64,000 nt of DNA. Source: Clytia hemisphaerica. Taxonomy: Eukaryota; Cnidaria; Hydrozoa; Leptothecata; Clytiidae. The stretch lies in the NCBI GenBank assembly GCA_902728285.1, contig CACVBU010000292.1, forward strand, positions 519,103 through 583,102. The letters are read 5' to 3'. Of the stretch, positions 39,094 to 63,592 are shown one piece after another. The stretch's first letter is position 1. Each line of letters begins with the position of its first letter. Under the pieces are notes generated by a model that saw nothing but the letters and a program-made list of their open reading frames with translations, was not told where the DNA came from and did not search any database. Made by a program: the position numbers and the translations under genes.

Positions 39094-39794
39094 TACTTTG
39101 GGGATGAATCTGGGAAGATGGAATTATTCAACCAGTCATTAAAAAGAGAAGTAAGTGGTGATATAAAGAGAGGAGAGAGTGTGGAAAGAAGTTTATTTTG
39201 TATGGCATCATGGCCAGGTGCTTTGTGGACTTTGAGGGACTTTAGAACATTGTCAACCTCTTGATGTGTTATTTTTTCTTCGACTTCAAATCTAGTCAAG
39301 AGAAGATCAAGCATGTGATATATAGAAAAACGTTCTCTTCTATGAAAAAGAGTGTTCTTAAACCAGTGGTCGACAATATATTTATGCCTTCTGTCAGAGG
39401 AAATATTTGGTTGGAAAATTTTTTCTTGTCTTTCTCTAAAGGAATTAGCTATGTCTTGTTTATCTTTCACCTTAGAGCCATCTTCTTTGACAAAAACTTT
39501 ATCTTTATACTGTGTGTTGCATTTTTCACCATCTATAATTGTTTTAATATATTTCCAGGTCTTTTTGGTTGTTTCTCTAACATTAATTCTTTTCTTCATG
39601 AGCTCGAATCTTGCATCATCGCTATCTCTTATTTGTTGTTTGATCTGTCTGTTTAATTCTGTTTTTCTGCTTCTCAAAAAGATGTTATTTTTATTTTTTC
39701 TTAACAGATTGATTATACTTCTTCTTTCTTTTATCAATTTTCTGGTTTCAATAGACATACCCTGGTTTTTACTTGGTATCAACTTGGTTATCAC
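39093..39794 (-). pseudogene. Linker and N-terminal RT fragment, Jockey type
   Basis: The 233-residue frame covers the basic linker after the endonuclease and the start of the RT (HKAPGHDAIQNKLLSTLSPL, FNDWLNNSIFPDSSPK). The frame continues upstream to 40,083 without the ATG: GSDHLPVSFSFF, the end of the endonuclease, lies there in the same frame. Confidence 0.75.
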
Positions 39795-40083
39795 ATGTTT
39801 ATCTATGTCTTGAAGAGTGGAGATCAGTTTGTTTGTTTTTTCTACGACATTCTTTATTCCAAAAGTTTTGTCACAAGAAAATTGATTTATGATCCTAGCA
39901 GCAGTCTCAAGGTTAAGTTTATGGTAAAGTTTAACAAATTTTGATTTTTTAGGTGCTGTAGGATCAAAGAAAGAAAAAGAGACAGGTAGATGGTCAGAAC
40001 CAATGGACTTAAGCGAAGTAATGTGCTCAATTTGAAAGAATCTAATAGGAGATGTTATAACTTGTTGTATAACTTCTTTAAAT

Positions 40084-40638
40084 TCACCTTATTTTGGTTT
40101 TAAAGTTTGGTGGCATCACATATGTTTCAAAGTTGTTATCATCGTACAATTTCCTAAAAGTAGTACCTCTATGGTTGTCTTTTATACTGCCCCAAGAATG
40201 GTGTTTAGAATTTAGGTCTCCGACTATGATTGTATTTAGAAGAAAGAGAAGTTTTAAAACTTCAGCATCTGCTGTAAAAGTAGGTGGAAAATAGCAACAA
40301 CAGAGATGAAAAGATTTTGACATATTTAGCGAGTCAGGAAAAATTTTAATTAAAAGGATTTCGTATTTCCCTATTTGATATTTCCTTATCTCATCATGTG
40401 CAATATCCTCTCTAATTAGGATGGCTGTCCCTCCTCCATAAGATCTTAAAGTTCTTCTATTCTTTCTATTGTTCATGATAGCTGTGTAGTGTTTGATTTT
40501 GATGGTTTCTTTGTTAATTAACTTTGTTTCGTTCAAACAAACTATGTCAGGTTTTTCTTCAGCTAAGAGAGTTTGTAGATCTCGTTTTTTCGATTTAAAT
40601 CCGTTAAGGTTTGATTGGATTATTTTTAAGCTCATCAT
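40084..40638 (-). pseudogene. APE-type endonuclease, Jockey type ORF2 start
   Basis: The 184-residue frame starts MMSLKIIQSNLNGFKSKKRD and has PDIVCLNETKL, YGGGTAILIRED and IVGDLNSKHHSWGS, the endonuclease signatures. It closes at PNFKTKIR; the SDHLP motif follows in frame after a gap, so part of the domain is deleted. The ATG overlaps the ORF1 stop (ATGATGA), which points to termination-reinitiation. Confidence 0.85.
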
Positions 40639-41660
40639 TTTGGAGATAGGGACACCGGTGGTTCTTCAAGAATTAAAGAGGTATTTCTGAGTTCATCTAG
40701 GGAATTCAGGAAGTTTTCCTTATCAAATTTATTATGGTGTCTCTTCATGATGGATTGAAGATGAAAGCAAATGTCAATGTGTGTAGTCATTTTCTGTTGC
40801 TCAATAGCATAGCAAGCTTCAAAAACAATAAAAGATAAAGTTTTGATGTCAATAGATTTTTCAGATAGTGAGAGAATTTCTGAAGAAAGTTCAGAAGAGA
40901 GATGTTCTTTGGTTACATAGTTATCTTTGACTTCAGATAAAGTATGGCAAATGATTTTATTTTGTTTTTCTAAATTGTCGATTCTGGATGTAATAGAAGA
41001 GAGACTGTTACTGATTTTGCTAACGGTTTTCTCTAAAATGTTGACGTTTGTAAAAAGGGTTTTGGTGTTATCAGAGATTGTTCCTAGCAGAGTAGAAATC
41101 TCAGTGACTTGTGATTTTATTGAGTCCATTCCTTCAGTACAGGATTTTACACTGGTTTGCAGGGTGACAGATTCTTGACTAAAGTTTGCAACTTGTGCAT
41201 ATGTTTTTTCAAGTTGGCTGTATGAATTTTTTACTTCTTTAACAGAATTATTGATTGCAGATATCTTGGAAGACTTTTGTCTGTCACTACGTGTGAAAGT
41301 AGCTTTTTCAACTAAACTTTTATAAACACTACATCCTCTATAAAAAGACGAATGGTTTTTTCCACAGTTCACACAACATTTCTGGTTACACTTCCTTATA
41401 CAGTCTTCTTTACCACACCAACTACATAGAGGATTTTTGGTTTTACAAATGGATTGAACATGACCAAATTTTAAGCATTTTTTACATTGGATAATGTACT
41501 TTTCAATAGGATCATATTTCCTGACAAAGTGTCTACTAACAGAATTGTTAGCCTTTATGGTAAGAGGAAAGTCGTCTTCTATATCACCTTTTAACACTTC
41601 AAAAACAACTAGATTTCCTTCTCTTCTGAGATTGTATACTTCGTTAACATAGTATTCCAA
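40635..41660 (-). CDS. LINE ORF1, gag-like with zinc knuckles
   Basis: The 341-residue frame has a cysteine-rich block at about residues 58-110: CKKCLKFGHVQSICKTKNPL, CSWCGKEDC and CCVNCGKNHSSFYRGC, three CCHC-type knuckles as in Jockey and I-group ORF1 proteins. A coiled-coil-like stretch follows (residues about 150-250). It binds element RNA in known relatives. The N-terminus continues in other frames at 41,706-41,915 and 41,915-42,259, so the ORF is broken by frameshifts. Confidence 0.8.
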   Translation of the reverse strand: MEYYVNEVYNLRREGNLVVFEVLKGDIEDDFPLTIKANNSVSRHFVRKYDPIEKYIIQCKKCLKFGHVQSICKTKNPLCSWCGKEDCIRKCNQKCCVNCGKNHSSFYRGCSVYKSLVEKATFTRSDRQKSSKISAINNSVKEVKNSYSQLEKTYAQVANFSQESVTLQTSVKSCTEGMDSIKSQVTEISTLLGTISDNTKTLFTNVNILEKTVSKISNSLSSITSRIDNLEKQNKIICHTLSEVKDNYVTKEHLSSELSSEILSLSEKSIDIKTLSFIVFEACYAIEQQKMTTHIDICFHLQSIMKRHHNKFDKENFLNSLDELRNTSLILEEPPVSLSPK

Positions 41661-42849: not shown

Positions 42850-45800
42850 CTACTTTTCTGCCATGGAAGTCAAGATAAAGCTACGAAGGTGATTTTTGAG
42901 AGTTGATTTGGATGATGAGGAAAGGTCTATGACAAGTTTTGAATGAAGGCTGTTCCAATCCTTAGTAACAAGGTTTGCAATATTATAAGAACCATACGTT
43001 ACCGAGTTTGTGATAGTTAAGTCAAGCTGATAATTGGTGCTTCGTGTATTGTGATCCTCTCTAAGTTTCCTAAGAAAGTTATCAAAATAAACAGGTAATT
43101 TCTTGTTGAAGAAGTCAAAGGCAAATAGACAATTTTTAAGAGAACGCTGTTTGATAATGGGGAGAATACGTGAATTGATGTAAAGTGGTAAAACAGATTC
43201 CCTTTGGTTTTTGAAGTGAATGATACGAAGAGCCTTATTTTGAAGTTTTTCGATTCTATTTAGACGCTCTTGAGTAGTAAAACCTAGAAATGGAAGACAG
43301 TAATTGACATGGGATTCAAAGAGGGAGTAGTATACAGATAATAGCGTCTTGTAGTCAACATAATGCCTAAGTTTCGAAAGTATACCTACAGTGCTAGCAA
43401 GTTTTTGAGAAAGTTTGAGCAGATGAGTATCCCAGTTAAGATTTTCATCAATTATAACACCAAGATATTTAGCATGATGGGAAGGTTTGATTTGCTGTCC
43501 ACTTAATCTGAAGTTTAAATGTTTTGTGATTTTTGTTCTGATAGTTCTGAATAAAATAATTTCGGTTTTTGATGTATTGAGACTTATCTTATTGGCTCTG
43601 AGCCAATGAACAAGTAGAGCAAGATCTCTGTTTACTATCCTGTTCAGTTCTTTCAGTGATTTCTCAGTGAATACTAAACTGGTGTCATCTGCAAAATGAA
43701 TGGAAGTGGAATAACAAACTGAATTATGCAAATCATTTATGTAGATAATGAACATAAGGGGTCCTAGAACAGACCCCTGAGGCACCCCATGCTTGACTTC
43801 ATGATAGTTTGATTTTGCATCATTTATGACAACACATTGAGATCTGTTTTTAAGATAGGATTCAAAAACCTTTAGAGCAACTCCTCTTACTCCATAATGA
43901 CATAGTTTTTGCAATAAAATATTGTGATCAATAGTATCAAAAGCTTTTTGAAGGTCAAGAAATACTGCGGCTGAAAATTCAGTTTTGTCAAGTGAGCTTC
44001 TGACAATTTCTGTGAGTGCTGTGATAGCATGTGTTGTACTATGCCCCTTTCTAAATCCGAACTGGTTTTTGAAAATCACTGATTGTTTTTCAAAAAATTC
44101 AGTAAGCCTGGAATGTAATAAAGTTTCAAAAATTTTGTTTATGTTTGATAGTAAAGAGATTGGCCTATAATTACTTACCTCGGTCCTAGCGTTCTTTTTG
44201 TGGAGAGGCTTAATATTTGCTTTTTTTAGACAGTCAGGATACTCACCTTTGTCAAGACATTCATTGAATATGTAAGATATAATTTCACTAGCAGTAATTG
44301 ATGTCATCTTTAGAATTTTAGGATCGATACTGTTAGGGCCTGACGCCTTTTTCAAGTCAATTTTTTCAATAAGTTTATATACAGCCATTGGAGTTGTTGG
44401 AGTAAGATGAATGGAAGCATTAGTAGGATTGCCCATAAAATCAGTGAAAATCTTGTTGGTTTGAGGTATTTTAGCCTTGGTTTTTTCGGCTATCGACCCA
44501 TAAAAATCATTAAAAAGTTCTGCTATATCCTCTTCTTTAGTTATATGAGCATTGTTGTGAATCAAAAGCTTAGGAGAGGAGCTATCTTTAGTTTTGGTGT
44601 TAGTGATTTCGTTTATAGTTTTCCAAATGAGTGATAAGTTTGTCTTGTGACGGAAAAAGTATTCTTTGATGTATTTGTTTTTGCTAATTCTGAGAAGTTT
44701 TATTATGAAATTCCTGTGTCTTTTGTATCTAGCAAATTTTGGAATTTTTTCAGGAGAATCGTCTTTGAGTTTTAAATATTCACCGTGATACTTGTCTCTG
44801 TTGAGCATAGCTTGACGCAAGCCGAAAGTGACCCATGGTTTGGGTGAGATAAAATCATTGATAAACTTTGTTTTGACTGGAGCATGTTGATCAACAAGGT
44901 TGTTGGTAAGGTTGATAAAAGTTTCAAGTTTTTGGTTTGAAGTTTTGTTTTCAAAATGGTCAGGCCAAGAAATAGAGATAAAGTCGAGTAAAAAATCTTC
45001 CCGATCAAATTTGCTAAAGTCCCTCCATGATTTCTTTGTTTTGGTACGTTTGTTAGCTGAAATATCAAGATTAAGAATTTGGGGGAGATGGTCAGAAATT
45101 CCGCAAATAAGATTATGAGAATTTGATTCAAAAGACAGTATGTTTGTGAAAATGTTGTCAATGAGAGTTTTGGAGTAAGGCGTTATTCTAGTTGGTCTGG
45201 TGATTTGAGGAGTGAAAAATCGAGAAAGATTTGTTTCAAGAAAATCCTTGTGACTAGGTTTAAGATCAGCTTTCAAAAGATCAATGTTAAAATCACCCAT
45301 TAATATTGCCTGTTTGTTTTCACTGTTGATTTTATCAAGAAGATTAGAATAGAGAATGTTAAATTCGTCAATATCCATGTTAGGATGTTTGTAAATACAA
45401 GCAACAATAATACTGGGATGGTTGTCTAATATAACTTCATGAATGATTGATTCAACTTCATTTCTTTTGTAAATTTTTAAGTCATCCCTGGGATTAGTTT
45501 CATATTCTTTGGAAAAGTAAAGTCTTGCACCACCTTTGTTAGAGTCAGTGCAGCAGTCATAATGATTATAGCCTTGAATTTTAGCCGCATTTTCTGCTTT
45601 TTCTTTGTCTTTGAAGCCAGTTTCTGTTATTCCAATAATTTGAAAAGGGTTAACTCTGTTCGAGATTATGTTAATTAGATTTTGTTTATGTAGTTCTAGA
45701 GATGCGATATTCATATGGAATGTAGATAATGAATTCTTGGAAAGTTTTTCAGCCTTTTTGTTTTGTTCACTTAGTGAGAGATAGGGACAATGTATGTCTT

Positions 45801-46137
45801 GCCCCATCTCAGTTTCTGCAAGTGCAAGATCAATGTCTTTAAAAAATTGAATGTTTAAATTGTTTTCAGGGTCAGAAAAAAGAAGATGATCACAACACTT
45901 ACCTTGGAGAGTTAGTTTGAGTCCTTCATCAGTGAGGCTGTCAAAGACGGCTTCCTTCTTGAAACATTTTTGGCAGAGCCATGCATCATCTGGATTTGAA
46001 TCTAAAAGCTTTTGGTAGTCAGAAGGTGATGTGTTATTACATTTAGCATGAATCCAAAAACGACAATTATTACAGTAGATACCTCTATGAGTGGTTGCAA
46101 CTGGGTTGTAGCAGACCCCACAAGGGAAGGCAACCAT
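42850..46137 (-). CDS. LINE ORF2: PHD finger, endonuclease, reverse transcriptase
   Basis: The 1095-residue frame is intact. Residues 6-58 form a C4HC3 PHD finger (Cys6, 9, 22, 25, His30, Cys33, 55, 58). An APE-type endonuclease follows at about 135-360 (FHMNIASLELHK, IIGITETGF, LMGDFNIDLLKAD, GISDHLPQIL) and a reverse transcriptase at about 620-900 (NYRPISLLSNINKIFETLLH, FLDLQKAFDTIDHNILL, HGVPQGSVLGPLMFIIYIND, IHFADDTSLVF). The C-terminus has LQNKALRIIHFKN. The RT and C-terminal motifs suit the CR1/L2 group. PHD fingers read histone H3 tails in other proteins and might steer insertion; that is inference. Confidence 0.88.
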   Translation of the reverse strand: MVAFPCGVCYNPVATTHRGIYCNNCRFWIHAKCNNTSPSDYQKLLDSNPDDAWLCQKCFKKEAVFDSLTDEGLKLTLQGKCCDHLLFSDPENNLNIQFFKDIDLALAETEMGQDIHCPYLSLSEQNKKAEKLSKNSLSTFHMNIASLELHKQNLINIISNRVNPFQIIGITETGFKDKEKAENAAKIQGYNHYDCCTDSNKGGARLYFSKEYETNPRDDLKIYKRNEVESIIHEVILDNHPSIIVACIYKHPNMDIDEFNILYSNLLDKINSENKQAILMGDFNIDLLKADLKPSHKDFLETNLSRFFTPQITRPTRITPYSKTLIDNIFTNILSFESNSHNLICGISDHLPQILNLDISANKRTKTKKSWRDFSKFDREDFLLDFISISWPDHFENKTSNQKLETFINLTNNLVDQHAPVKTKFINDFISPKPWVTFGLRQAMLNRDKYHGEYLKLKDDSPEKIPKFARYKRHRNFIIKLLRISKNKYIKEYFFRHKTNLSLIWKTINEITNTKTKDSSSPKLLIHNNAHITKEEDIAELFNDFYGSIAEKTKAKIPQTNKIFTDFMGNPTNASIHLTPTTPMAVYKLIEKIDLKKASGPNSIDPKILKMTSITASEIISYIFNECLDKGEYPDCLKKANIKPLHKKNARTEVSNYRPISLLSNINKIFETLLHSRLTEFFEKQSVIFKNQFGFRKGHSTTHAITALTEIVRSSLDKTEFSAAVFLDLQKAFDTIDHNILLQKLCHYGVRGVALKVFESYLKNRSQCVVINDAKSNYHEVKHGVPQGSVLGPLMFIIYINDLHNSVCYSTSIHFADDTSLVFTEKSLKELNRIVNRDLALLVHWLRANKISLNTSKTEIILFRTIRTKITKHLNFRLSGQQIKPSHHAKYLGVIIDENLNWDTHLLKLSQKLASTVGILSKLRHYVDYKTLLSVYYSLFESHVNYCLPFLGFTTQERLNRIEKLQNKALRIIHFKNQRESVLPLYINSRILPIIKQRSLKNCLFAFDFFNKKLPVYFDNFLRKLREDHNTRSTNYQLDLTITNSVTYGSYNIANLVTKDWNSLHSKLVIDLSSSSKSTLKNHLRSFILTSMAEK

Positions 46138-47446: not shown

Positions 47447-47480
47447 ACAAAAACAACGAAATCTGATGATATCCCTTAAG

Positions 47481-47960
47481 AAAATTTTAAGTATGCATCT
47501 AGTATGCATCAGTATGATTATAGTATGCATGTAGTATGCATCAGTATGAGCATACTTGCATACCAAAAAACAAGTATGCATAAATTTAATAGCATACTTA
47601 ACACAAGTATGCCTCTAGTATGCATTCTGAACACAAGTATGCATCTAGTATGCATACTAAAATTGAGTATGCATACTAAGTCTGCATATCATACTGAAGT
47701 ATGCCATTAGGTCTGCATACCAAACTTAAGTATGCCATTAGGTTTGCATACCAAACTTAAGTATGCCATTAGGTCTGCATACCAAACTTAAGTATGCCAT
47801 TAAGTCTGCATACCAAACTCAAAAATGCCATCAGGTCTGCATACCAAAATGAAGTATGCCATTAGGTCTGCATACCAAAATTAAAGTATGCCATCAGGTC
47901 TGCATACCAAACTGAAATATACTGCCATGTAAGCAAATATGCATACTAAACATAAGTATG
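47481..47960. repeat. Left subterminal repeat array
   Basis: The first part has irregular AGTATGCAT units. From about 47,690 a regular 31-bp unit follows, about seven times: GCCATTAGGTCTGCATACCA plus AACTTAAGTAT. GTATGC and GCATAC cores are the constant part. In plant CACTA elements such subterminal motifs bind the accessory protein TNPA. Confidence 0.85.
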
Positions 47961-49857
47961 CTACAAATATGAAATCTCAGCTAGACTATAAGAGCAGGTT
48001 TAGTAGTCTTAGCCAAATGTAGACTAATAATAGTGGATAATCCCTTATCAATTAATTAAAATCATCCTATTTTTGCCTTGCAAAAAGAACTGAAATCGAG
48101 AAAGGCTAGGATAGGCCAAATGTTAAAAAAAAAGAATGACATCCTAAACACATGTATGCTTCAATCTTAAATTTAAACCAGACTTCAAAAGAAGGTTTGT
48201 AAATTGTAAATTGCCTCAGAAATTGAATGTATTTTGAACAAAAAAAGTAAACAAGGAATTTGTTACCTGGAAAATTCTTTTTGAATACAAATTCTGTTCT
48301 GCCTTTTCAAGGATGCATATTTGGTTAGAAAAAATAAACTTACATAGATTGATGGTGACAAAGAAGATCATACCTTCTCAATATTTACCAATGACTGTTC
48401 ATCTTTTTTAAGTGTTTTTTTATTAGTTAATTGCACTTAAAAGAAAATAATTAATGAATGTTATATGATGAAGACAGGACGGTCGATTGTAATTATACAA
48501 TATTGACTGTTTTGGAGGTGCATAGGGGAAATCTTGACAACAGCCGATTCAGACCGAGCTTGCACCAAACTGACCAAACTCTTTAATGCAACAAATTCTG
48601 AAGAAGAAAACTATGTGTTCACCTGTAAGGGACACTATCGTCACAACCAGTTATAATAATCAATATCTGTACCTGTTCTTATACAATGTGTTCTCACAGA
48701 ATTAATAGACAAAGTATGTAACATAATGTTATTAAGATAGTTCAAACTGAAATCATGATAAATCTAATAGACAATGAATTGAATAAAAAATACACAAGAA
48801 AATTGAACTAAAATTGGCTAGAAATCTAGAGAAAATGAGCTAAAAACTGAAAAATTTAACATGTGAAAATATAGCAACATGAATGTTGTAACTTTAGCTT
48901 AACTTCAAGAAAAGCTATCTAGAAATACATAAAAAATTTTATGCCTAAGCCAAATGGGCTGATGTGCAGAAACTGAAAACAAGAAAATGCAGAAAACAAC
49001 ATATCAGGTAGTCAGTATACTGAAACTGCGCAATAAGTTAAAATTTAAATGATTGAATTTATGTTGAATGATTGGCTAAAATTGTGTCTGTGTCAATTGA
49101 TGTCCACTTACAATGCTTCTCATAGCTTGTTAGATTTGATGTGAAAACCAAGTGGAAAAAATGACTACTTATTGCAAAAAATTGAAACAGGTAGATAATT
49201 GGCTACATGTTAATAAACTAATTATGTATTAAAATGTTACAAAAGACAAACTTAAACTGAGTGTAACCTAACATAGAAGAAAGTTATGCGATAAACTCAT
49301 ATTGCTCTGATTTAAATAAAGAAGAAAATTAGTTTCTCAGGTAAAAAGGGTATGAAAACTATGAATAATAAACAAACAGATTTTAAAATTTGATGAAAAA
49401 TTTTAACCATTTCGAGTAAATTATGAACATATAACTACTGTAAATTGATAAAGCTAAACATTAAAAATGTAATCATTTTTGAGTCTTAGGATGAAAAATG
49501 ACAGAGTCAAAAATAAATAAACAAATAAATTCAAAGTTAACTGTTTTTCCCACACAAAGGTAAAAGTTGGATGAACCAGTAGAACACTGTTCTTTGAAAA
49601 AATATTTATCAATGTTACTATTAGAGAAAATTCTATAGATAATTGGCTTGACATTAATTGCAAATGATATATAACATAATAGGTTTTTGGAGACTAATAT
49701 AGAAAAAGATAATGTTTTTATGATAATACACCACCTGGAAACAATGTAAAGTAATTTTCATTAATCAAAAAACTATTCAAGATTACAATTAGATTAAAAT
49801 ATTGATAAACGATCATAATTTTATGTGAAATCAAAGGAAGAAATAGAGTGTGTGTAA
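47961..49857. other. Non-coding left interior of the CACTA-like element
   Basis: AT-rich, no exon that I can support on either strand. It lies between the left subterminal array and the 3' end of the transposase gene. Confidence 0.5.
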
Positions 49858-50028
49858 GACAGAGCAAGAGAGAGAGAGCAAGAGAGAAAGAGAGCAAGAG
49901 AGAAAGAGAGGAAGAGAGAGAGAGAGAGGAAGAGAGAGAGCAAGAGAGAGAGAGAAAGAGAGAGACAGAGAGAGAGAGCACAAGAGAGAGACAGAGAGAG
50001 AGAGCACAAGAGAGAGGCGGAGAGAGAG
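49858..50028. repeat. GA-rich microsatellite
   Basis: Interrupted (GA)n with GAGAGAGCAAGAGAGAAAGA-type units over 170 bp, downstream of the transposase stop. The open frames across it are low complexity. Confidence 0.9.
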
Positions 50029-50272
50029 GCTTTATTACATTATTATTATAAAATTCTAAACGTATAATTTAGAATCACGCTAAAATTATTAATCTAATAT
50101 GCTTATTTCTCTGAAGAAAAAGAATGGATCATAACAAATGGAAAGAAAAATGAACCTTCATGAGTATATAACCCAGAACAATGCCCAATGACCAAAGCTC
50201 AATAATTTTCCAATTCTTTTACCAAATCCAGGTCTCAGTGTGCTTTTTAAAAAACATGTGAAAAAACTTAAA

Positions 50273-53200
50273 TTAATCAGATTCTAAAATATTAGGAAAT
50301 TCTGTAATGTAGGCATTTCCACCATCAACTTCAAGAGATATGCATTGTTCAAAGATGTCTTTAATTTCAATGATGCTCAATTTGTTATCAAGCTTGACTT
50401 TTTTAACCAAACATTTGTTTTCATCAAACTTCAAACATTTCAGAAAGCTGCTTGATGGTGCAAATATTTGAACTGGTTCAACATTAAAGTAATGTCCAAA
50501 AGCAATATAATATGAATCTCCATCATCAGTTTTAAAGCAAGCAAAACGTTGAATGGAAAAGTAGTGGCCTGTGGTCAGAGAAACGGATATACTATTTCGA
50601 CGGACTTCTTTTGTGCGACAACCAGATCTTATTATGAACCCACCAAGCTTAATAGATGGAAAGGTTGACACTGATGAATGCATTACCATAAACCGACTTG
50701 TAAATAGTTGGTCTTCTTCTCTGGTGACATAATAAGGTGAAAGACTGCCAATACCAGTTAACGTTTGAGTAATTCGAAAAATATGTTTGTGGTAGGTTCC
50801 ATTTAGTTGCTTCAAGTACTTGTGCTCCTTGGTGTTTGGTTTTATACAAATTTCTGCGAGGTATGGAAGATTATTTGAGGCAGAAACAGCACTTGCTAAT
50901 TGAAAAGGAATGTTTTGTGTACCATGGATGAGTTTTAAAATATAACCATTCTTATCCTCAAAACTGAACAAGCTATAAACATAGAGAGGACCAAGCTCCA
51001 AAACAGTTTGCGGTAGATGTACCAAAGAGTGGATATTAATGGTCATATAACGGCGGGTATAGAGCTTATCGAAAGATGCACAGAATAAGAAGAGAAATCT
51101 TCTGGCAGTATTAATATCGTCTAAATTAATTTTTGATTTCAGCAGAAGGTGAACAGCATGACTGAGTAGATAAAAATGCTCAAAATAAATTGACGGTAGA
51201 AGATTTAACATAACAGGAACAAAATAATACAGCAAAAATGAGCGAAACTCTGATGCTTTCCAATAGCCAAGATTACCTTTGATGGTACGGGGTACACGAG
51301 ATATATGATTTGGTGGCTTCAGGGATACTAAACGATTTTCTATGGTAGGTAATGCTTGAAAAACAGAATAACTTTCTCCTTTATGGGAGCCATCAAACCA
51401 AAAAGACATAAGTAACTTTGTGACTCCAAGAAGAACTGCATGCATGTAATCGATACCCATACCACGAATGACATCATAATCTGGCACAAGCATTAATGGC
51501 GATGGTCCTTTAACACCCTTAACATGTGCCTCGCTAGAGTTGATTGCTTCAATAGCATATTCCTTTGTCTTGGAGTGTGTACGAGGAGGGCCAGACGGGT
51601 TAGCCTTATCAAACGGAAAGCATCTCACATTACCATTTTTATTTGTCTTTTCTGTTTTTCCTTCCTGTAAACATTTAGGACACCCATAAAATGAATTGAA
51701 CTGCTGAAAGTTTAAGACACTCGCTTTAGCAGGCATATCAAAGGTTCCACAGAGCAACATTGACTTGATTGTTACATCTTTATTAATTTTGATTCCAAAA
51801 TAGGAAAATTCTCTCAATGTTTCAAATTGTGGTGGCAAGAATAAGAGCATGTTAGGATGAGTTTCACCATACCACAGGCCACTGATTAATATATTCTCCT
51901 TTTTTCTTCTGTCTTCATAAGGTAATTCGTTAATGGTGTAGAAAACTGGCCAGATAGAAGATTTGATACTTTTAAAAAGGGGTACACCATCTGTATTCCA
52001 CATAAAGGAAATGTTCAAAGGATTGTTCAGAAACGAAGAAAATGATTTGTAGAGTGAAAAGTCGTAAATATCAGACGGGGAAGAAGAATTACGATTGAAG
52101 CGGTGTAACAGCTTTTCCAACATTCCAGCACGTGAGAAAATGGACTTGATTTGGGCTTTGATATCAAATTCCATAAAATAAGATTTAGACAATGGTTTTG
52201 AAGACTTTTTTGATTGAGCACAAGTAGAATTTGGACACACTGTACTGTTTTTATCAAGTTTCATTAAACATTCCTTGCAAAAGTAATGGGTTTTGACATT
52301 GGGTGATAAAGAACCAAGCATTTTCTTGAGGATGAACAAGGATTTAGGAAAAATGTGATTTTTAGGCAAAAGAATATTAATCAGCAGAATCAAGGATGAA
52401 AGTGCAACACCAGGTAGTTTGAATTTCTGGACAAAGGCAATAACAACTGTAAGTGCAGCTCCGAGTGATATGTCAGAACCAGGATGGAGAGGAGAAGAAA
52501 ATTGACTTGTTCCACCAGAATTGGATTGATCAGTTTCTTCTACGTGTACTTCTGGATCATCTGTATTTAATGGAAAGATCAGTAGTTTAATTTTCACATG
52601 TAAATCTTTATTAAGAACTTTTTTATATACATTTAGTGTATTCATTCTAAGGCAGTTCCAGTTATAGTCCGTTTACCCCGCTGTGGACGATATGGATTTT
52701 CAATGATACACATAAGACATAACATTCAAGATTTTTTAAAGAACAAGTGATACTTTTATGGACCTAACTGGTTATCAAACCTAATGGATGAACATCAATG
52801 ATTCCATTCGAAGATATTGACATTCAAAGTTCCAAATTCAAGACAAGACAAGTTTTGGAAAATCCAGGATTTTTCCTCATTATTTAGCTAAGTATCGGAA
52901 AATCCATAAAATTTGCTCTATTTTTTCTTGCAAAGTATCAGAAAATCCAAGATTTTCCCATAAAAAATCTCGAATGTTACGGAAAATCCTGAAGTTTTTC
53001 AAAAGTAAATTGTTACAGAAAATCCATGTCGTCCACAGGAGGGTAACGGACTATAACTTGAAACGCCCATTTATTTGTTATAAAATCTCCTTTTGTCGAA
53101 GAGTTCATGTCACTTACTTCACACAGTTTCATTTTCACACATAAAAAGGAATTTTAACGAGAAAGATATTTACAAGAAAGCTTTCCACTTACTCAATGTA

Positions 53201-54127
53201 CTCATGTCTCTAATTAAATCCAGACGCGTTCATGAACTCGAGAGTAGTTATTTTATGCAAAATCTATATTATATTCTTACCATGTAATTCTTCAACAACA
53301 TCATCCCAAAAATCACCATCATCAAGGAATCCATTATAACCCTCAAATTCATTGTCTAATTGAAAAACGTCTGAAAGATCATCCACATTACCAGAATTGT
53401 CATGGCTCGACATGTAAACTGTAAAAAAAATTATTCATTACCTAAAAATCTCAAAAATAAAAGTAAACCCAACAAGACAGGAGGTTGGCAGTATCTATCC
53501 GTCGTCTATCGGCCATGTTGCAAAACTGAAAGTTATATTTCAAAACTGTTTTGAGGAAGCAAATAGGACATGTTGTTTAGCATTTTTTTATAAGAAACTC
53601 CAATTTCCGAGTCAGGAATGTAGCTGCTGAATATTTCTAGCTCATTTTCAGAAAAAAAATTTTGATCACGCTCTGGAATATATACAACCATGCACATTGA
53701 GATGGTAAAGATTTAAGTGCTTTTTTTAAAAGGAGACAGTGAAAAATATCATTTAATTTTAAAGGGCTAGAGTTTTAGCAATCAAAAGTTTCTTACAAGA
53801 AGGAGATTTGAGGCGGAAATTGAGCTCTTATTATTTTTAAAAATAAATACCTTCGAATACTTTATTCAGGTCAGATGAATCTGAAACGTAAGATATCTCA
53901 TCTGGTTCGCATGTAGTTGATGCATCTGTCATTTCAATGTCACTATTTATTTCTCCCAAAGAAGATGTGACTTCAGTTTCATCGTGACCACCTGAAACGT
54001 CTACATGTTCACTACACTCGACCTCAAAAGCTTCTTTAAAAACTTCGTCTGAAGTTGATTCATAATAAGTTTCCCTATGTCGATAAAAGTACGAGAGAGA
54101 TAGACCTGTCACCTTATCCGACGCCAT
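50273..54127 (-). CDS. CACTA/EnSpm-type transposase, three exons
   Basis: Exons on the minus strand: 54,127-53,851, 53,418-53,281 and 52,560-50,273; GT-AG junctions, phases fit, 900 residues. The first two exons are acidic and start MASDKVTGLSLSYFY. Exon 3 carries a zinc-ribbon-like Cys set (Cys233, 236, 247, 252), then the transposase core: Asp329 in FMWNTDGVPLFKS, Asp413 in LLCGTFDMPAKAS followed by a CPKC knuckle (432-435), and GIDYMHAVLLGVTKLL (Asp509). MTINIHSLVHLPQTVLELGP near residue 670 and LFSFEDKNG match the tnp2/DUF4218 type C-terminal part. The three Asp are my candidates for the catalytic acids. A longer open frame to 52,645 exists, but the TTAAATACAG acceptor at 52,561 joins better. 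Role: cut-and-paste of the element. Confidence 0.82.
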
Positions 54128-54385
54128 TGTGAAACTAAAATTTGGCGGGAAAATTGCCTGATAATTGTTTGATGAATATTAAATATGGCGGTAAAGTTGC
54201 CTGGTCGTTATTGACAATCGAATGTTTCACGTTCGATCGAGAATGGAATGTTTCGCGTTCGAAAATCAAGATCAAAATTTAAAGGGGAGGAGCGGCCATT
54301 TTCGATTTTTTGATAAAGTGGGAAGTTACGAGGTGATTTTGTTAAGAATAGTTAACTTTTATTAAACTAATCAAATTTAATCAAA
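54128..54385. promoter_or_regulatory. Shared divergent promoter of transposase and BEN gene
   Basis: The 258 bp separate the two start codons. They hold TTTGGCGGGAAA at 54,141, which fits the E2F consensus, and a similar ATGGCGGTAAA copy at about 54,185. Two direct copies of GAATGTTTC(A/G)CGTTCGA lie at 54,220 and 54,246. No TATA box is evident. The sites suggest joint control of both genes, perhaps tied to S phase; that is inference. Confidence 0.6.
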
Positions 54386-57300
54386 ATGGCAAGCCGTGTA
54401 CAGAGAGACAGAAAACCTTCGTCAAAATTACAACCAGAAAAAGGTAAGATTAATTTTCATGCTTAATCCCGGAAGTAACGCAATGAACGATGTTATTTTT
54501 TTTATAAGCACAAAGGTATTAGGCTCGGGGTACTTTGCTTAACATTTTCCAGAAGTGACGCAATGAACAAGTTTTTTATAAGCATAAAAGAAGGGCTTTG
54601 TGTAAATGAATCGCTATTACTTGTAAGTTTTTGAGAGAGAAATTAATCCTTTTTTGTTACCGACAGATGATGGCCCACTCTTGGAAATCCGATTCACTGA
54701 GGAGGAGAGTAATGGTAAGCGAATGAAACTGACGCAGTCATTCGCGGTGCTGAAACCCAAAGATATTGATACGGGGAAAGAGAAAAGTATCCAAGAATTG
54801 GAGGAGTTGAAAAAGTATGCTTTCTTCTACACCCACCATAAGGCATACTATCCCGCAGTCTTGTTGGAAATAAAACGACAAAAAAGAAGGTCGACAACAA
54901 TAGAAGGTTTGTAATTATTTATTTTCGTATTTATAGGTATCATAATTCTTTCTGAATAGAATTCTTTCTGAATAGAAAACTTGTTAAAGAAAAGGGATTC
55001 ATCGATACTCGAAACCATCTTCGTTTAAGTACACTGTAGTCTTTGTTTGGAACAAACTTTAGACGACTGGCCTTTGAAACCAAAGCATTTAAGGTTAAAC
55101 ATCTTCAAATAATATATCATCTGTCCAGTGATAACACATTATAAACACACCAATAACCTGTCATTTAGGAGGTTTGACCAAAAATCATATTTGTTGACCT
55201 GAAAAAGAGAAAAAATCGATGATATATTTACTACTGTTCAGTTCCTTTTGGAAATATGCTTCTAGTGTTGAACAGCACGAATACAGGCTGGGAAATTGTT
55301 TAAGAGGCGAAGTGTCCACATACTAGGAGACAAACTTTCCTGAACCTATAAATTTTCTGAGTCTTTATATTTCAAAAATGAAAATATTGCAATATTGCTT
55401 CACCTTGTTTGTTATAGAAGATGTAGATGAGCTTCAAGACGAAAACCAAGGTGACAACGATTCTGAAGATCATGGTTAGCAAATTCCATTTTATCTGAGG
55501 AGAAAAATTCGATCATTATTATATTGTTATACCTCTTTAGTATATCGATATTTCAAGAGGGAATAAAATTTTGCTTATTCCAATAGTTAGAAATATTTAT
55601 ATCACTCATGAAATACTATTTTATAAGCATATATTATGAAGGCTCACATTTACTAAATCTTGTTGCTTTTCTGATAATGGAAAAGAACTAATATCGTCAG
55701 AACTAAATAAAATGCATAATTATTCTTTTCAGAAAAGACAAAGCCACGAACAAAGAAGCAAAAATTCGAGAAAGGTAAAGAAGATACACTGCAAATAATT
55801 TTTCAAGCTTTATGTAAGCAAGAAATTTGGGCGGATTTGGCCAGAATTTGCCAAATTAAACTTTTTGAAAATATATTTCTGGTGGTTTTGCATTTTTTAT
55901 GCTGTTTTTACGCCATTTTAAGGATAATTTTTTCAGCAAATGCCAAATTAAATTCCCGCCAAATTTACTTTAAATTCCCGCCAAAATTTCTTCAATTAAG
56001 GTAGTGGTCATAAATCCATAACTTGCAAAACGAACTTGAGTTGTCTCAAAAACATGTTTTTGACTATTAGTAGGGGGAAATTTGTAAAATCGCTCGATTT
56101 TTTTAGTCAAAGCACTTGTTATACATTTTTGGAAAGCTAAGGGGTAGGGGAATCAAAATAACTTGGGTGCCAATTTTCTTTCGGACACTTTGGTGTGGTT
56201 TTCGGACAAATACGACGGTCTCAGGCAAAAATCATAGGGTGAAAAATTAATGAAAATTTTAGCTTGAGAAAACAGAGACCTGTTGTATATTTTTGGAAAG
56301 CTCTCAAAAAATTAAGATTAGTGATATATTGCGAGTATAGGTGATTTCTTTACCTAACTCGAGATATTGAGCTTCCAAAAGCGCAAAAACTGGACAAAAC
56401 AGCTGTTTCTGGCTTAAAAACACTGTTTTTAAGGATTAATATCTCGAGTTAGGTAAAGAAATCACCTATACTCGCAATATATCACTAATCTTAATTTTTT
56501 GAGAGCTTTCCAAAAATATACAACAGGTCTTCGTTTTCTCAAGCTGAAATTTCATTAATTTTTCACCCTATGATTTTTGCCTGAGACCGTCGTATTTGTC
56601 CGAAAATCACACCAAAGTGTCCGAAAAAAAATTGGCATCCAAGTTATTTTGATTCCCCTACCCTTAGCTTTCCAAAAATGTATAACAAGTGCTTTGACTA
56701 AAAAAGTCGAGCGACCTCAAAAAAACGAACAAATTTCCCCCTACTATATTTCTCAGCACCCATGCTTTTCTTTATTTAAAACATTTATATCATTGTACCT
56801 GTATTTTTCAGCAGACCAAACAACCGAAGAACCAAAGAGTGCGTCTAGCAACCAAGGTAAGTCTGATACGATACCTATTTAAGAAAGTTTTAATTAAAAA
56901 TATATTTAAATGTTTTCTATGATACTTCCAATTTTACAGTTTGAATGAAACAGGGGGTTATAACAATTATCAAATTTTCTTCAGAACCCAAGAAAAACAA
57001 TGCAAAGAAAAAGAAGACAAATGATGAGACAGAGGCAAAAAAAAACAAGGAACAGAGAGGTGAAAACCGTTATCCAAGATTTACCTTAAGGGAAAATTTT
57101 AATGCAAGACTAAATTAATTTGAATATATAAGTTTTGCAAAAAGGGCAATTTTGGCATTAATTAATTAGAGTAATTAGAGTTTTCAGTAATAGGAACTGT
57201 GTCGACTCTGGTCTAATGAAGACTAATTGTTGCTATATTTTATTTTAGACAGGGAAAACAATATGAAAAAGGCTAAAGCAAAGACAACATCCGTTCTGGG

Positions 57301-60300
57301 CCAGGAAATTTTGAATAAAACAGGTATGCATTAAGCTCAGATGGTCAATTAGGTGTCTAATATGAATATTGGCATTCTAAATAGGATGTTAACACAATTA
57401 ATCCATTCCAGCAGTCAATGTGACTGTAACAAAAATAGAGGCTGGACATTAACATTAAGTGCATTACTTTTTATATTTTATTGTATTTATTCTTAGATGC
57501 ATTGAAAGACCTAGGTGTGTCCGATGAAATACTGGACCAATTTGTTGATGCCGACATGTTGAATTACAACATCTCCAGAATGGATGAAAGTGAAGGTAAA
57601 AAGTTAACCGAATCATTAAAGGCATAGAGGATAAATCAGAAAAACATGACATGAAACTTCAGGCACAAACTTAAGCGTAATTTAGCAGTAACAAATTGTG
57701 ATGTGTATTTTTTTTACAGATTTTGAAATTGAAGAATGCTCAAAAACGAAACATGTAGAAGACCCACCACTTTTCCAGCAACAAAGTGAGAATAATGAAA
57801 ACCGACCTGCACAAATTAATCTGCCCTTGCCTGCTATCTCAAAAGGTAAGTAAATTTCATAAAGGTCTTATTTGTTATTTTGTCAAACAGAATGGAAATA
57901 TCAGTCTTCAATACTGTAAGGCACTGTAATAAGCAAACTATTGGTAAAAAAAAGAAGATCATAAAATGAAGATCTTTCTGCTTTTAATAAAAACATGACA
58001 TGAAACTTCAGGCACAAACTTAAACGTAATTTAGCAGTAACAAATTGTGATGTGTATTTTTTTTTACAGATTTTGAAATTGGAGAATGCTCAAAGACAAA
58101 ACACATAGAAAACCCACCACTTTTCCAGCAACAAATTGAGAACAAAAATGAAAACCAACCTGCACAAATTAATCTGCCCTCGCCCATTATCCCAAAAGGT
58201 AAGTAAATTTCATAAAGGTCTTATTTGTTATCTTGTCAAACAGAATGGAAATATCAGTATTCAATACTGTAAGGCACTGTAATAAGCCATCTAGGAAAGA
58301 CAAATTTTAGCAAAATAACTTTATGAACTATTACAACTGTTTTTTTTCTCCATAGAAAAGAAATCTCCAGTTTATCACAACATGACCTCCACTAAAGGTA
58401 TGTATCTTAAAAGTAAGCTAACATCAAAAAAGTTTGTACTTTAGGCGTAGAAACTTTCGCGAGCAGAAACTTTCGCGATTTTCGCGAATTTTGGCCCTTT
58501 TCGCGAAAGTAAATGTCTTTAAAAATTCTAGGAAGGGCCATTCGCGAAAGTTTATGCTCGCGAAAAATTCTTAACAAAATAGAAAATCTGTAAAACTTCA
58601 AATTTTGAATAAAATGTAACTTTTATGGCTATTTTTAGCCTGTTAAAAGACTAATAAGTCAAAGGACAAATGTTTCAAGCCAATCTAAGAAGTATTAGTC
58701 CCTCTAAGCCATTTTTTCATATGAAAATTCTCAATTTTACGTCTTGATTCGCGAAAGTTTATGCTCGCGAAAAATATTTTTCCGTTAAATTCGCGAAAGT
58801 AAATGTCGTGAATTTCGCGATTTTTCGTCCTCGCGAAAGTTTCTGCTCGCGAAAGTTTGTACGCCTAAAGTAGTAAATTTGCTTCAAATCAAATATCTGA
58901 GAATTAGGTACCAACGCCCACCGTCACAGGCCAAATTTTACTAACATACATACCCTGAAATAGAGCATGCCAGACACCAAAGGTGGTGTGATATTTTTGT
59001 CAACTAATTTGACTTTATTTTGCAAAAGTAATCCTATGCCAACTAAGAAATCCAATTTAAAATGTACCATGTTGTCTTCTTAACATTTCATAGACAAAGA
59101 ATGTTCCAACTGTTCGAGATTGAAACGAGAGCTCGAAGATGCAAAAAGGCAGATACAAATCAGAGGTAAGGTTGTCCAATAAGTTTTTTATCAATGCACA
59201 ACCTTTCAAATTGAGTCAATTGTAATATTAAAGGCAGTTAGTTACAGGCGAAGTTGGTTTCCAATTACAAATTAAAATTTACTTACTAGATCAACAACTG
59301 CATCAAATTAAATCGATATTTGTGCCCGACATAATTTCAACACTGGAGTCAATAAACCATGTTGGTCCCAACCACAACAATACGGTAAGAAACTAGAAAA
59401 TAGAAGAAATGTATCTATAATTTTGGACACTATTCTTTTTTTTCCTAGGGATTTTCCAGGTTTAAAAAAGTTTTTAAAAAGCCAAATTTTTTATCGACGT
59501 ATACAATTTTTTAATCAAACAAATAAGGTCTCTATAAAATACTTTTCTAGGTGATAAGCAGTGACAGTCTTAGTAAATCATCCAAGGTGCAAGATGTATT
59601 ACCCAATGTCACATTGGTAAGAAGATTTATCATTGCATTGAGATAGTTGATTTGAAAGCTGAGAGTGATAGTCAAAAGCAGGGGACCGTCCACATAGTTT
59701 GTCCACATAGGAAATGCCAGGACATACTTAGGTTAACTTCCATAATGTACCTTACTAGATTTTTGACAGATTTGAAAAAAGAAGGATTTAAACTTAAAAA
59801 ATATTCTTCACATATTGCCTAGGTCCCTGGAGATGTTAACTATTTTGCTCAATGACTTCTATAGCTTTGGACACCATATTAATATATTCAAAAAAGCTAT
59901 TCTTAAAACCAACTTTCAGGAATGTGGAAATGTTACACCAAGTGGATCTAAGCCAAAGAACACTCAACTGACCCAGTTGGTCAATAAATTTACACCTTCG
60001 ACAGTTAAGGTGATCTATTTGTACATTTATCATATGCATCATTACAAATGGGATTCCAGGAAAAAACAAGCAATGCTGATACCATAAGACTGAGTTAAAT
60101 TTTGTAGATCAAAAAATTAATTTAGCAATTTTTAATTTTATTTCTTCCATTTTAGAATGGCCCATTATTCAAAGAGCCCTCTGCGTCAGTTTTGACAAGT
60201 GGACAAAGTGAGGTAATAAGGAAATATTAAATTTAGCTTTGAAATTAGCCACTGTTAACCAAATTGCCAAGTTTTGACCTGCTAAATTTAATTTTCGTCA

Positions 60301-62896
60301 TCCGCAAAATTTAAATTGCTCCCATTTACTCCCCCAAAAGGGGATTTTATCTGGCCCTAAAACAGGTTTTTACTCTTTTAATGGCTTTTTTGGACAAAAA
60401 TATCTATCCTTCATCCACCAAATTAAATTCCCACCAAAATTTCTTCTTTTTAGGTAAACGAGCATGCACCCTATGCCAAAATTTCCAAAAATAGCACATC
60501 ACAAATTTAATTTTTGTGCATGCAAAATGAGCACACTCTTGTACCCTTTCCTTTGCATAAATGATAGCACTTTAAACAATGCGAAAGAGAAGATTACTGA
60601 GTAAACAAATGGAGCTCACACAGTCAATAATGGATACAGGCCTTAACCAATAAAAATTGAATTATTTGACATTTTCTATATCAGCAGACGTCAACACCAC
60701 CCTCAAAAGAGTTCTTCACCGTTGGAAATAATGTTATGAAACAATTGCATCCACGGACACCGCATATTTTGTTAACTGATGATGATATTTTGAAGTTGAG
60801 GATTGCGTCCAAAAACTTGAAGGAATGGAGACCTTTCGTCAATGAGCTTTTGTCAATGAAATTCACGAAAGAAGAGTTGGCCATGTAAGGTTACTTTTCT
60901 TTATTTCCAAAGACATTATCATTTTAGCCTGTTTGGTAATTTTAATCAATTGTTCTAGCTTTAGAAAAATGTGGGTTAGTCGATCAGGATATTTAAAAAA
61001 ATTATCTGAAAATGTAGAAGTTTTGAAGCAATACTTTCCATCTTTAAAACAATAATGGCAATTAGTGAGGGCTGATCAGTACAGCTGAAAAAAACTAGTC
61101 ATTATTGTATTTGTTACCCGTTTCCTTCAGCTTTGATTGATTTTTTAGCGTTTTAACGCAAAAAAATAGCGAAAGCAAAAAGAGATCAAAAATTGTTATA
61201 ATTTGATGTCAGAAATAAAAAATGAGAGAAATTATGTCAACACAATGTCCATTTTCCTTTGAAAAAATGACGACACAATGAAGTTTTCTAACAACAAGTA
61301 ACTTTGGGCAGTGTAGGCCTGTCGTCAGGCGTAGCTATCACAAATAAGTTGTGTTCGTGTCGTCCGACCGACTAACTTTCTATCTATCAGTCGGAAAGTC
61401 GGAAATATATCGGATTTTTTTGCAACAGTGATATGCAAAAAATCATAATGCAGCTAGTGCGCTTGATAATTCTTGCCGCGCGAACAAACCTATATTCAGG
61501 GCGCATTTTTTCGATGATTCCAGTGCTGACCGACTTCCTAAGTTCAGAGCGCACTTTTCCAACGATTTTAGTGCCGACGGACTCACTTTTTGGGGCTGGA
61601 AATGACGCGAACACAACTTATATGCGATTGACGCCTCATGTGAAAAGAACCATTTGTATTGCGTAAAAAGCCCTGTAGCCCACTTTGAAAAAGTAACCAG
61701 TTAACAATATTGATGAGTGACCTTTGAGCTATTTCCATTTTGATATGTAAAATTCAATTCAATATTATTTTTTCAATTTTGGAAAACACAGCGTCAGTAT
61801 AAGGCACGTGGAACAATATTTAAAATGTCACCTTCAGATCGTCATAATTCTAACAAAGAATTCTCAAAAATAATCCTGAAATCCAGCTATTTCTTGATTG
61901 TTTTTACCCTTCTTTATTTTTCAGACTGAATAGAACAGATTTAAATTTAATCGCGTGCCAGGCTTCCTCACATTCTTTTAAAAACAAGACTAAATGTCAG
62001 ATGAGGATTTTCCTACCCAGCAGATTTTTTTTCCATCGGTTGCCTAACCGGCCCACCCACTTTCTCCAAGTTAAATGATGGGAACGAAACAATTTATACG
62101 AACTACCTAAGAAAATTAGATTTGTTTATGTTCTGCCATTTTGAGCACACAACTACATTGTAGACTTTTAACATTTAACATTGCAACCTCATTTCAGGTC
62201 TTCAGCTGAAGGAAAAGAAAACAGAAAGACAAAGACCTCAAAACCAGCTTTGAACCCCTTCATCATCAAAGAATTGATAGGTATGAATTAAATTTGTTGG
62301 CCTGTTGTAGGTGTCACCAGCTACTTGTAATGTGTTAATGCACACATGTGTTAGTTTTGACCTTTCCACCTAACACTCATTGCCCACTGTATGTTTATAT
62401 GAGACTTGCGAAATTAATAAAATCTTATCATCAAATGGACTTACCTGGGTTGAACTTTCAAAATTTCTTTCATCTTAGCCTATACAACAACAAAGTGGCC
62501 ATATAAAAAGGCTGAAGGTGACAAACCAGCGGAGGGATGCTCGGAATCATTATGCAAGCGGACAATAAATAACAAATGTGGATCTGCCAGAAGTAAGTTT
62601 ACTTTCAGTCACGTTTGATCACTTTGATATTCACAGATTTCTACATATGTATGAGCCTGTCTAGCAGAAGCTGAAAAGAACACCATGTTGTGTTCATTTT
62701 GTTTTGATTTGGATGTTCCATTTCGACTATTTTGCAGAATGATTTTCACTTCTCAAAGTTGACACATTCCTGAGCCGTTCTAGTCTTGACGGCTATTTTC
62801 CCGAACATTACCGCCCGCGCGGCGATTCATTTCTTTTAGCACTAACAGCGGGCTTTTTGAAATTTAGAACTACCCAAGCAGAAGAACGACGCGTAA
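54386..62896 (+). CDS. 20-exon BEN-domain protein
   Basis: Exons: 54386-54443, 54667-54906, 55418-55474, 55733-55774, 56812-56856, 56985-57059, 57249-57323, 57497-57595, 57720-57845, 58070-58198, 58356-58397, 59094-59165, 59248-59384, 59551-59616, 59920-60009, 60156-60212, 60685-60884, 62198-62280, 62479-62592, 62868-62896. All are GT-AG and the sum is exactly 612 codons. It starts MASRVQRDRKPSSKLQPEKD. Exons 4-7 are Lys-rich (TKPRTKKQKFEK), exon 12 has CSNCSRLKRELEDAKRQIQI, a short coiled coil. The C-terminal part, about residues 485-605, reads LKEWRPFVNELLSMKFTKEE, LAMSSAEG, KPALNPFIIKELI and TINNKCGSAR, the pattern of a BEN domain, which binds DNA. It is divergent from the transposase and within the same terminal repeats. 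Likely nuclear DNA-binding partner of the element; a host gene caught inside is the alternative. Confidence 0.85.
56080..56745. mobile_element. Foldback element in an intron of the BEN gene
   Basis: Two arms of more than 300 bp (AGTAGGGGGAAATTTG, AATCAAAATAACTTGG, CCTAACTCGAGATATT on the left, all inverted on the right) around a short centre near 56,410. The motif GAAAGCTCTC and CTAACTCGAGATAT also occur in the foldback at 12,452, so the two belong to one style of element. No ORF of its own. Confidence 0.8.
57642..58290 (+). repeat. Tandem duplication of an exon and its introns
   Basis: A block starting AAAACATGACATGAAACTTC is present at about 57,642 and 57,990, and continues through exon 9/10 and the intron text AAATTTCATAAAGGTCTTAT. 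The offset is 350 bp. Both exon copies keep splice sites and frame; the second has one additional codon. Confidence 0.9.
58437..58872. mobile_element. CGCGAAAG-family MITE, copy 2
   Basis: A 436-bp copy of the element at 8253-8688, same ends and same length, with few differences. It lies in the intron between exons 11 and 12 of the BEN gene. Confidence 0.8.
60885..62197. other. Intron 17 of the BEN gene
   Basis: The largest intron. I see no inserted element with clear ends. Between about 61,330 and 61,620 an inverted pair with GTGTTCGTGTCGTC against GACGCGAACACAACTT suggests a small old MITE. Confidence 0.45.
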
Positions 62897-63179
62897 TCAC
62901 GGACTGGAACCGACGAACGGGGCGCGGAAAGAAATATTTTAAATGACGACTGGATGGCAGGAATTCCTGGATGGATGGCTATAGATAACTATAACTATGT
63001 TCACTTTTTTTTGCTTTTTTATACATTCAAATTGTTTTTATTTTCGGTAAAAAATCGTTCAGTGTGATACAAACCAATTTGTTTTTTTACTTCGTTGATC
63101 TCCAATGCTAGCTTAGTCTTCCTGTCATACTACTTGGTCATACTATGTGTGCTTTCATTCAAACTTGGCGGAAGACATC

Positions 63180-63560
63180 AAGTATGATTTTTTTCAAATG
63201 ATGCATACTTAATTTAAGTATGCATTAAAAATCAGGCATACTACAAGCATGCAAGATCAAGTATGCAAACGGAAGAAATTTTGCATACTACAAGTATGAA
63301 TTTTCTCAAATGCATACTTAATTTAAGTATGCATTAAAAATCAGGCATACTACAAGCATGCAATGTCAAGTATGCAAACGGAAATTTTTTTGCATACTAC
63401 AAGTATGAATTTTCTCAAATGCATACTTAATTTAAGTATGCATTAACATGAAGTTTGAGTATGCATTCCAAGTATGACAAATTTTAGTCTGCTTTCGCAA
63501 GTCTGCATTTGAAAAAAATCATACCTAATTTCTCATACTAAATGAATACTTGAATCATAC
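63180..63560. repeat. Right subterminal repeat array
   Basis: About two and a half copies of a 105-110-bp unit (CATACTTAATTTAAGTATGC, ATTAAAAATCAGGCATACTA, CAAGCATGCAA, TCAAGTATGCAAACGGAA). GTATGC and GCATAC cores are shared with the left array, although the units differ. Confidence 0.85.
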
Positions 63561-63592
63561 TTGAGCATACTTCAGTTATTTCCTTAAGGGAT

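Follow-up and report, generated by a model that had tools for sequence, protein, structure and literature searches.

A two-gene CACTA-type transposon of Clytia hemisphaerica that carries a BEN-domain gene beside its transposase

The window, the whole 64,000-nucleotide stretch of Clytia hemisphaerica DNA analyzed here (contig CACVBU010000292.1, positions 519,103 to 583,102), contains a two-gene CACTA-type (CMC) DNA transposon of an animal genome at positions 47473-63590. One gene encodes a tnp2 transposase and the other, in divergent layout, a protein that ends in a BEN domain. The BEN gene recurs beside the transposase in many copies, is under purifying selection and repeats the divergent layout, which bears out the preliminary description of a CACTA-like element whose own second component is a BEN gene. 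We consider it probable, with some reserve, that this is a CCC-type animal CACTA cut-and-paste transposon whose BEN protein is an element-encoded, array-binding cofactor that aids end assembly, expression control or both.

The complete element comprises 16118 bp, with termini common to other copies and with empty sites elsewhere in the genome. The inverted ends reported in the preliminary description were found, with CCCTTAAG on the left (47473-47480, plus strand) and CTTAAGGG on the right (63583-63590, minus strand), but the boundaries given there were off by 2 bp: its terminus, ATCCCTTAAG, consists of the duplicated AT followed by the true end CCCTTAAG, and other copies end in CCC/GGG, not ATCCC. 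The target duplication AT occupies 47471-47472 on the left and 63591-63592 on the right. When the joined flanks of the window element were used as query, 13 matches were obtained, 9 of which crossed the junction, and the three of these that were read out (C856, C612 and C340) carried ...AAATCTGATGATATGATTTCACTGG..., with AT once. These empty paralogous sites match ...GATGATATGATTTC... apart from one base change to the right in C856, two to the right in C612 and one to the left in C340. As had been noted, the element is flanked by GAT on each outer side, but because the empty paralogous sites carry a single AT, only AT is duplicated and GAT is target sequence, which rules out a GAT duplication. 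The proposed searches for other copies with the same ends and for an empty site with one GAT thus found both shared termini and empty sites, with CCC as the terminus and AT as the duplicated pair.

CCC...GGG ends were observed in the window and in the seven copies with both ends read (C450, C164, C103, C739, C27, C852 and C303). An exact 2-bp duplication was present in five of seven testable copies (window AT, C450 AA, C103 TA, C27 CT and C303 TA); the other two are one base off (C739 TA/TT and C852 TT/TA), and C164, with an unreadable base, is outside this count. At the base composition found here the chance of at least five exact duplications in seven is about 5e-5. The left ends of C726 (at 35022), C796 and C386 begin with CCCTTAAG; that of C266 reads CCCTAG at 45101 and looks degraded, and the stretch of C680 examined showed no left end. 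CACTA ends and 3-bp duplications, as in En/Spm, characterize plant-type CACTA elements; the ends here are CCC and the duplication is 2 bp.

The insertion lies within a repeat, beside a LINE. LINE-type reverse transcriptase elements are found on the minus strand of the window at 42850-46137, 28837-32010 and 38293-41660, and the first of these, which has an N-terminal PHD finger, adjoins the transposon insertion. Elsewhere in the window, a frame at 10253-11970 weakly resembles the phage-integrase SAM-like family (19.0 bits against a cut-off of 22.3) and is perhaps a tyrosine-recombinase element.

The transposase gene lies on the minus strand and comprises three exons encoding 901 aa: exon 1 with the ATG (53851-54127, splice sites by inspection), exon 2 (53281-53418) and exon 3 with the tnp2 domain (50273-52560). 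As first described, the protein is of tnp2 type: it matched Transposase_21 at 33.6 bits (cut-off 28.6). Its score for DUF1258 was nearly the same (33.8 bits, cut-off 33.1), so that the Pfam profiles cannot separate CACTA from Mirage. The window transposase contains the motifs NTDG, GTFD, CPKC, HSLVH and FED. The second D (GTFD), CxxC, HxxxH and the E (FED) aligned in all six proteins compared, including C57 at 35% identity, with [FY]ED at the E position throughout, and the first D (NTDG) aligned in the five of five transposases that reach it, the C57 piece being too short. The protein therefore shows the CMC superfamily pattern, namely D, D and E with CxxC and Hx3-4H between the second D and the E, and the catalytic residues are presumably among these D, D and E. 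Both a C(2)C and an H(3-4)H motif have been reported for the CMC group (PMC12730594). DUF1258 denotes the Mirage group, which in the accessible portion of its source is described mostly from nematodes, with no BEN partner mentioned (PMC3985635). Genome-wide, 106 Transposase_21 matches were observed, which point to many further CACTA lineages in this genome.

A gap of 258 bp (54128-54385) separates the two start codons, in the divergent layout already recognized from the sequence, and is presumed to be a two-way promoter. The predicted BEN gene runs on the plus strand and has 20 exons, an open frame of 610 aa and GT-AG boundaries at 19 of 19 introns; with its BEN match above the Pfam cut-off, the earlier reading of a clean 20-exon gene ending in a BEN domain stands. 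Exon 1 with the ATG (54386-54443) is followed by exon 2 (54667-54906), which encodes the conserved N-terminal module and served as the genome probe for the gene. Exons 3-16 (55418-60212) encode the variable middle; exons 3-9 lie at 55418-55474, 55733-55774, 56812-56856, 56985-57059, 57249-57323, 57497-57595 and 57720-57845, and exons 10-16 at 58070-58198, 58356-58397, 59094-59165, 59248-59384, 59551-59616, 59920-60009 and 60156-60212. The BEN domain begins in exon 17 (60688-60884) and continues in exon 18 (62198-62280) and exon 19 (62479-62592), the latter encoding BEN helix alpha5 (INNKCGSARK); exon 20 (62868-62896) contains the stop codon (62894-62896). From N- to C-terminus, the protein thus consists of the exon 2 module, the variable middle, a CxxC with a coiled-coil-like stretch (by eye) and the BEN domain.

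BEN (PF10523) was matched at residues 520-597 with 30.9 bits (cut-off 23.2), and up to E 1 the window protein matched no Pfam family other than BEN. DUF4806, a BEN subtype according to the available part of PMC11075544, was considered and rejected, the Pfam match being BEN. The same three-exon split of the domain was found in C266 (35.2 bits) and C796 (28.2 bits), and the BEN scores of C27 (22.3 bits) and C164 (12.8 bits) fall under the cut-off of 23.2. Exons 9 and 10 form a 353-bp tandem duplication (57640-58287, 92% matches). Two long palindromes occupy introns 4 and 11 (56081-56723 and 58429-58880), with arms about 91-92% complementary, and are probably nested MITE-like inserts; part of the first resembles sequence near the C450 left end. 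An extra zero-length exon in the re-alignment of the window was an aligner artefact. In spliced alignments across subfamilies the middle exons are unreliable and support no claim; most of those of C103 were unrecovered.

Genome searches covered the 417-Mb assembly (951 contigs). Searching it for the Wnt family, which is not known outside animals, gave 39 matches, in agreement with an animal genome. The transposase search, with 57 of 551 candidates scored, gave 61 matches as a lower bound; these were merged by hand into 51 places, some of them short fragments, the other 10 matches being extra pieces of listed copies. In the BEN search 72 of 194 candidates were scored, and in the exon 2 search all 27 of 27, yielding 26 loci. 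When the 26 exon 2 loci were set against the 51 transposase places, 19 of them, window included, had a divergent transposase within 20 kb; the chance expectation from those 51 places is about 0.001 per locus. By transposase identity (best piece), an exon 2 partner was present at 12 of 16 places with at least 70% identity and at 7 of 13 with 50-69%, but at 0 of 22 below 50% (0 of 6 at 40-49% and 0 of 16 below 40%). Transposase families below 50% identity may hold a more divergent BEN. Outside the 19 of 26 count, C626 has a divergent BEN last exon 10 kb from its transposase, which came to light when the last BEN exon of C796 was used as query. No divergent transposase lay within 20 kb at 7 of the 26 exon 2 loci (C329, C594, two in C299, C341:96062, C541 and C517); in C517, a transposase fragment lies near exon 2 in the other, non-divergent orientation.

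No BEN exon was found 5' of the transposase in C860 (6.2 kb examined), C41 (5.7 kb) or C265 (5.1 kb), and the transposase frames of C860 and C41 are open. The question raised with the preliminary description, whether other copies carry both genes, is thus answered positively by the 19 loci but not for C860 and C41, and the BEN gene is sometimes absent from a close cis position. In C860 (247299-251442) a right end lies just 1.9 kb 5' of the open transposase frame, so that this copy reads as a likely BEN-deleted natural derivative. A genome-wide Pfam BEN scan was unusable for counting element BEN genes, since introns divide the domain among three exons; it gave five matches elsewhere. An 857-aa frame in C193 (1871834-1873030) with two BEN matches is probably a host BEN gene, and C720:34079-34159 and C391:12352-12432 carry another BEN last exon (INSKCGTARR), which is 59% similar to the C796 exon and represents a further subfamily.

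Coding constraint was measured as dN/dS by Nei-Gojobori counts. Between the window and C450, dS was 0.71 and dN 0.035 in exons 1-2 (dN/dS about 0.05), 0.62 and 0.013 in the BEN exons (dN/dS 0.02), and 0.50 and 0.097 across the whole BEN gene. Between C164 and C739, the BEN exons gave dS 0.28 and dN 0.042, and exons 1-2 gave dS 0.032 and dN 0.009. Synonymous sites are near or past saturation when the window or C450 is compared with other subfamilies; for the transposase, pS was 0.73 and pN 0.17 between the window and C164. The BEN protein diverges faster than the transposase. Only 0.8% of synonymous sites differ between the transposases of C739 and C103, so movement or copying of these elements was recent. 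When compared with C450:371428-387796, the window element (47473-63590) is mostly 93-96% alike in the left part with the transposase and 90% at the right end, with 77-78% across the initial third of the BEN gene and 72-91%, in pieces, in the remainder; this mosaic suggests module exchange between elements. Given the joint copies and the coding constraint, it is well supported that the BEN gene belongs to the element family as a component and is not a passenger.

Inside both ends lie subterminal arrays, in the left (47490-47961) of AGTATGCA-type motifs that partly form a 31-bp tandem repeat, and in the right (63203-63570) partly a 109-bp tandem repeat. Motifs were counted on both strands in the 450 bp from each end and compared with 200 shuffles. 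In the window, TATGC occurred 30 times on the left and 14 times on the right (shuffle means 4.3 and 2.3, maxima 12 and 6), in line with the GTATGC-rich arrays originally reported at both ends. Across copies, TATGC counts were 16-33 on the left (window and seven copies) and 11-17 on the right (window and five copies), with shuffle means of 1.6-4.9 and every count above its own maximum of 200 shuffles. The main motif varies by subfamily while the terminal CCCTTAAG persists: in the left 450 bp, TCTGC occurred 14 times each in C266 (transposase 63% identical) and C726 (59%; shuffle mean 1.7), and TGTGC 26 times in C796 and 22 times in C386 (both 54%; shuffle mean 3.7). Besides TATGC, TCTGC occurs 7-13 times in the left arrays of five copies (the window, C450, C27, C852 and C303), starting 209 bp inwards in the window; the array classes therefore differ by main motif and not absolutely. 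The shared 258-bp gap contains no arrays, the nearest GTATGC-type sites being two in exon 2 (54815 and 54843). In C726 (36450-36930) a second, different array, composed of AAGTATACTT/AAGTACA motifs and lying 1.4 kb inwards of the left end, is perhaps a nested element.

The BEN domain, whose founding paper is reportedly that of Abhiman in 2008, has structurally characterized members. In the PDB, a profile built from five element BENs matched BEND6 with an E value of 9.5e-8, NACC1 with 0.0024 and 0.0033 and, weakly, 4ix7 with 0.058; by sequence, the element domains thus share the BEN fold of BEND6 and NACC1 (7yul, 8yzs and 7bv9) and, with NACC1, the basic pair at the alpha5 end. BEND6 and NACC1, in contrast, are host factors with other DNA motifs, and NACC1 prefers CATG (PMC11472053, accessible part). 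In NACC1 alpha5, the same portion of that source reports that D462, T465 and R469 touch bases and that R468 makes a backbone contact required for binding. We placed these residue numbers on IAADMCTNARR by spacing. All five aligned BENs have R at the R468 position. At the R469 position, the TATGC class has K (window, C164 and C27), and both the TCTGC class (C266 and C726) and the TGTGC class (C796 and C386, with identical exon) have R, a comparison that covers three lineages only. C951 and C626 have the same BEN exon as C796, and C25 has nearly that of C266. Within the TATGC class, N, V and L all occur at the D462 position, so there is no strict helix-to-motif code. With three lineages, co-evolution of BEN and array is inseparable from shared descent with the transposase.

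From these observations we infer how the element would work. The tnp2 DDE transposase would act at the CCCTTAAG ends and make the 2-bp target duplications; the BEN protein, perhaps dimeric, would coat the subfamily-specific arrays inside both ends; and this coating would help to pair both ends with the transposase, control element expression, or both. A TNPA-like role of the BEN protein is plausible and agrees with the way the arrays differ between subfamilies.

A different role for the BEN protein, which we regard as unlikely yet the most serious alternative, is mainly anti-silencing or regulatory, as in VANC: the protein would bind the arrays in the non-coding DNA of the element and hold the promoter open, and the transposase alone would cut. 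Arabidopsis VANC binds motif arrays that vary among related elements and has a variable region with repeated peptides, the transposase being more conserved (PMC5735166, in the part available). The element described here likewise has varying arrays, a BEN protein that diverges faster than its transposase and a tandem duplication of exons 9-10, and BEN proteins are reported to recruit chromatin factors (PMC10206803, accessible text). Such a role fits less well with arrays at both ends and none in the shared gap, nor were DUF1985 or DUF287 among the Pfam matches up to E 1, assuming that the library has those models.

Because array motif, BEN and transposase diverge along the same three lineages, it is equally possible that the arrays are read by the transposase. 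The fuller proposal, in which the BEN protein does another job such as chromatin targeting of insertion, appears improbable to us: C860 and C41 keep an open transposase frame with no nearby BEN exon, as it would predict, but CCCTTAAG stays constant while the arrays change, which is expected if two proteins read two parts, and BEN is a DNA-reading domain. CACTA elements capture genes, host BEN genes exist in animals and five BEN matches lie elsewhere in the genome, but capture of a host gene as a mere passenger is very improbable, since copies differing by up to 46% in transposase protein share the layout, the division of BEN among exons and the coding constraint, and we reject it on the joint copies and selection.

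The reading that we prefer, an array-binding BEN cofactor, has partial precedents. The element resembles animal TRC/CACTA elements, known from SmTRC1 of Schistosoma and from Tribolium and Aedes, in its tnp2 (Transposase_21) domain, CCC ends and 2-bp duplications (DeMarco 2006, PMC1636069). In the available part of that source, a second protein lacking a transposase domain was predicted for the TNPA part, as a postulate only; the second proteins of SmTRC1 arise by alternative splicing and had no match in other animal or fungal elements, whereas here there is a separate divergent BEN gene. The same text states that maize TNPA regulates the promoter and is essential for transposition, as is TNPD. 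Among papers searchable by title and start of abstract, we found none describing a BEN gene in a CACTA element and none identifying a TNPA-like partner for animal CACTA after the 2006 description; Repbase and most subscription journals were outside the search, so a prior description is possible.

The element is like maize En/Spm in pairing a transposase with an element-encoded partner, and TNPA binds subterminal arrays in En/Spm; TNPA, however, comes from the transposase's own transcription unit, whereas the partner here is a separate gene whose protein matches only BEN in Pfam. VANDAL elements are Mutator-type. Their VANC is the closest precedent for arrays that change with an element-encoded reader, since this second protein of Arabidopsis VANDAL elements binds short-motif arrays differing among related elements; its domains are DUF1985 and DUF287, in contrast to BEN here (PMC5735166, part available).

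These data suggest that (i) the BEN protein is a concrete candidate for the TNPA counterpart, with a known DNA-binding fold, conservation beside the transposase and three natural motif classes in one genome; and (ii) more tentatively, and short of what we would call probable, in one animal CACTA clade the function of plant TNPA may have been taken over or invented anew by a BEN protein that co-evolves with its array, the subfamily motifs (GTATGCA, ATCTGCA and GTGTGCA) being read by alpha5. If BEN and array do co-evolve, cross-mobilization between subfamilies in one genome would be limited, and the subfamilies would provide a natural code for BEN-DNA recognition. If the candidate role is true, two-component CACTA transposition would have arisen with an unrelated DNA-binding protein, BEN domains would be working parts inside mobile DNA, and the subfamilies would offer pairs of protein and motif from which the rules of DNA choice by BEN domains could be learned.
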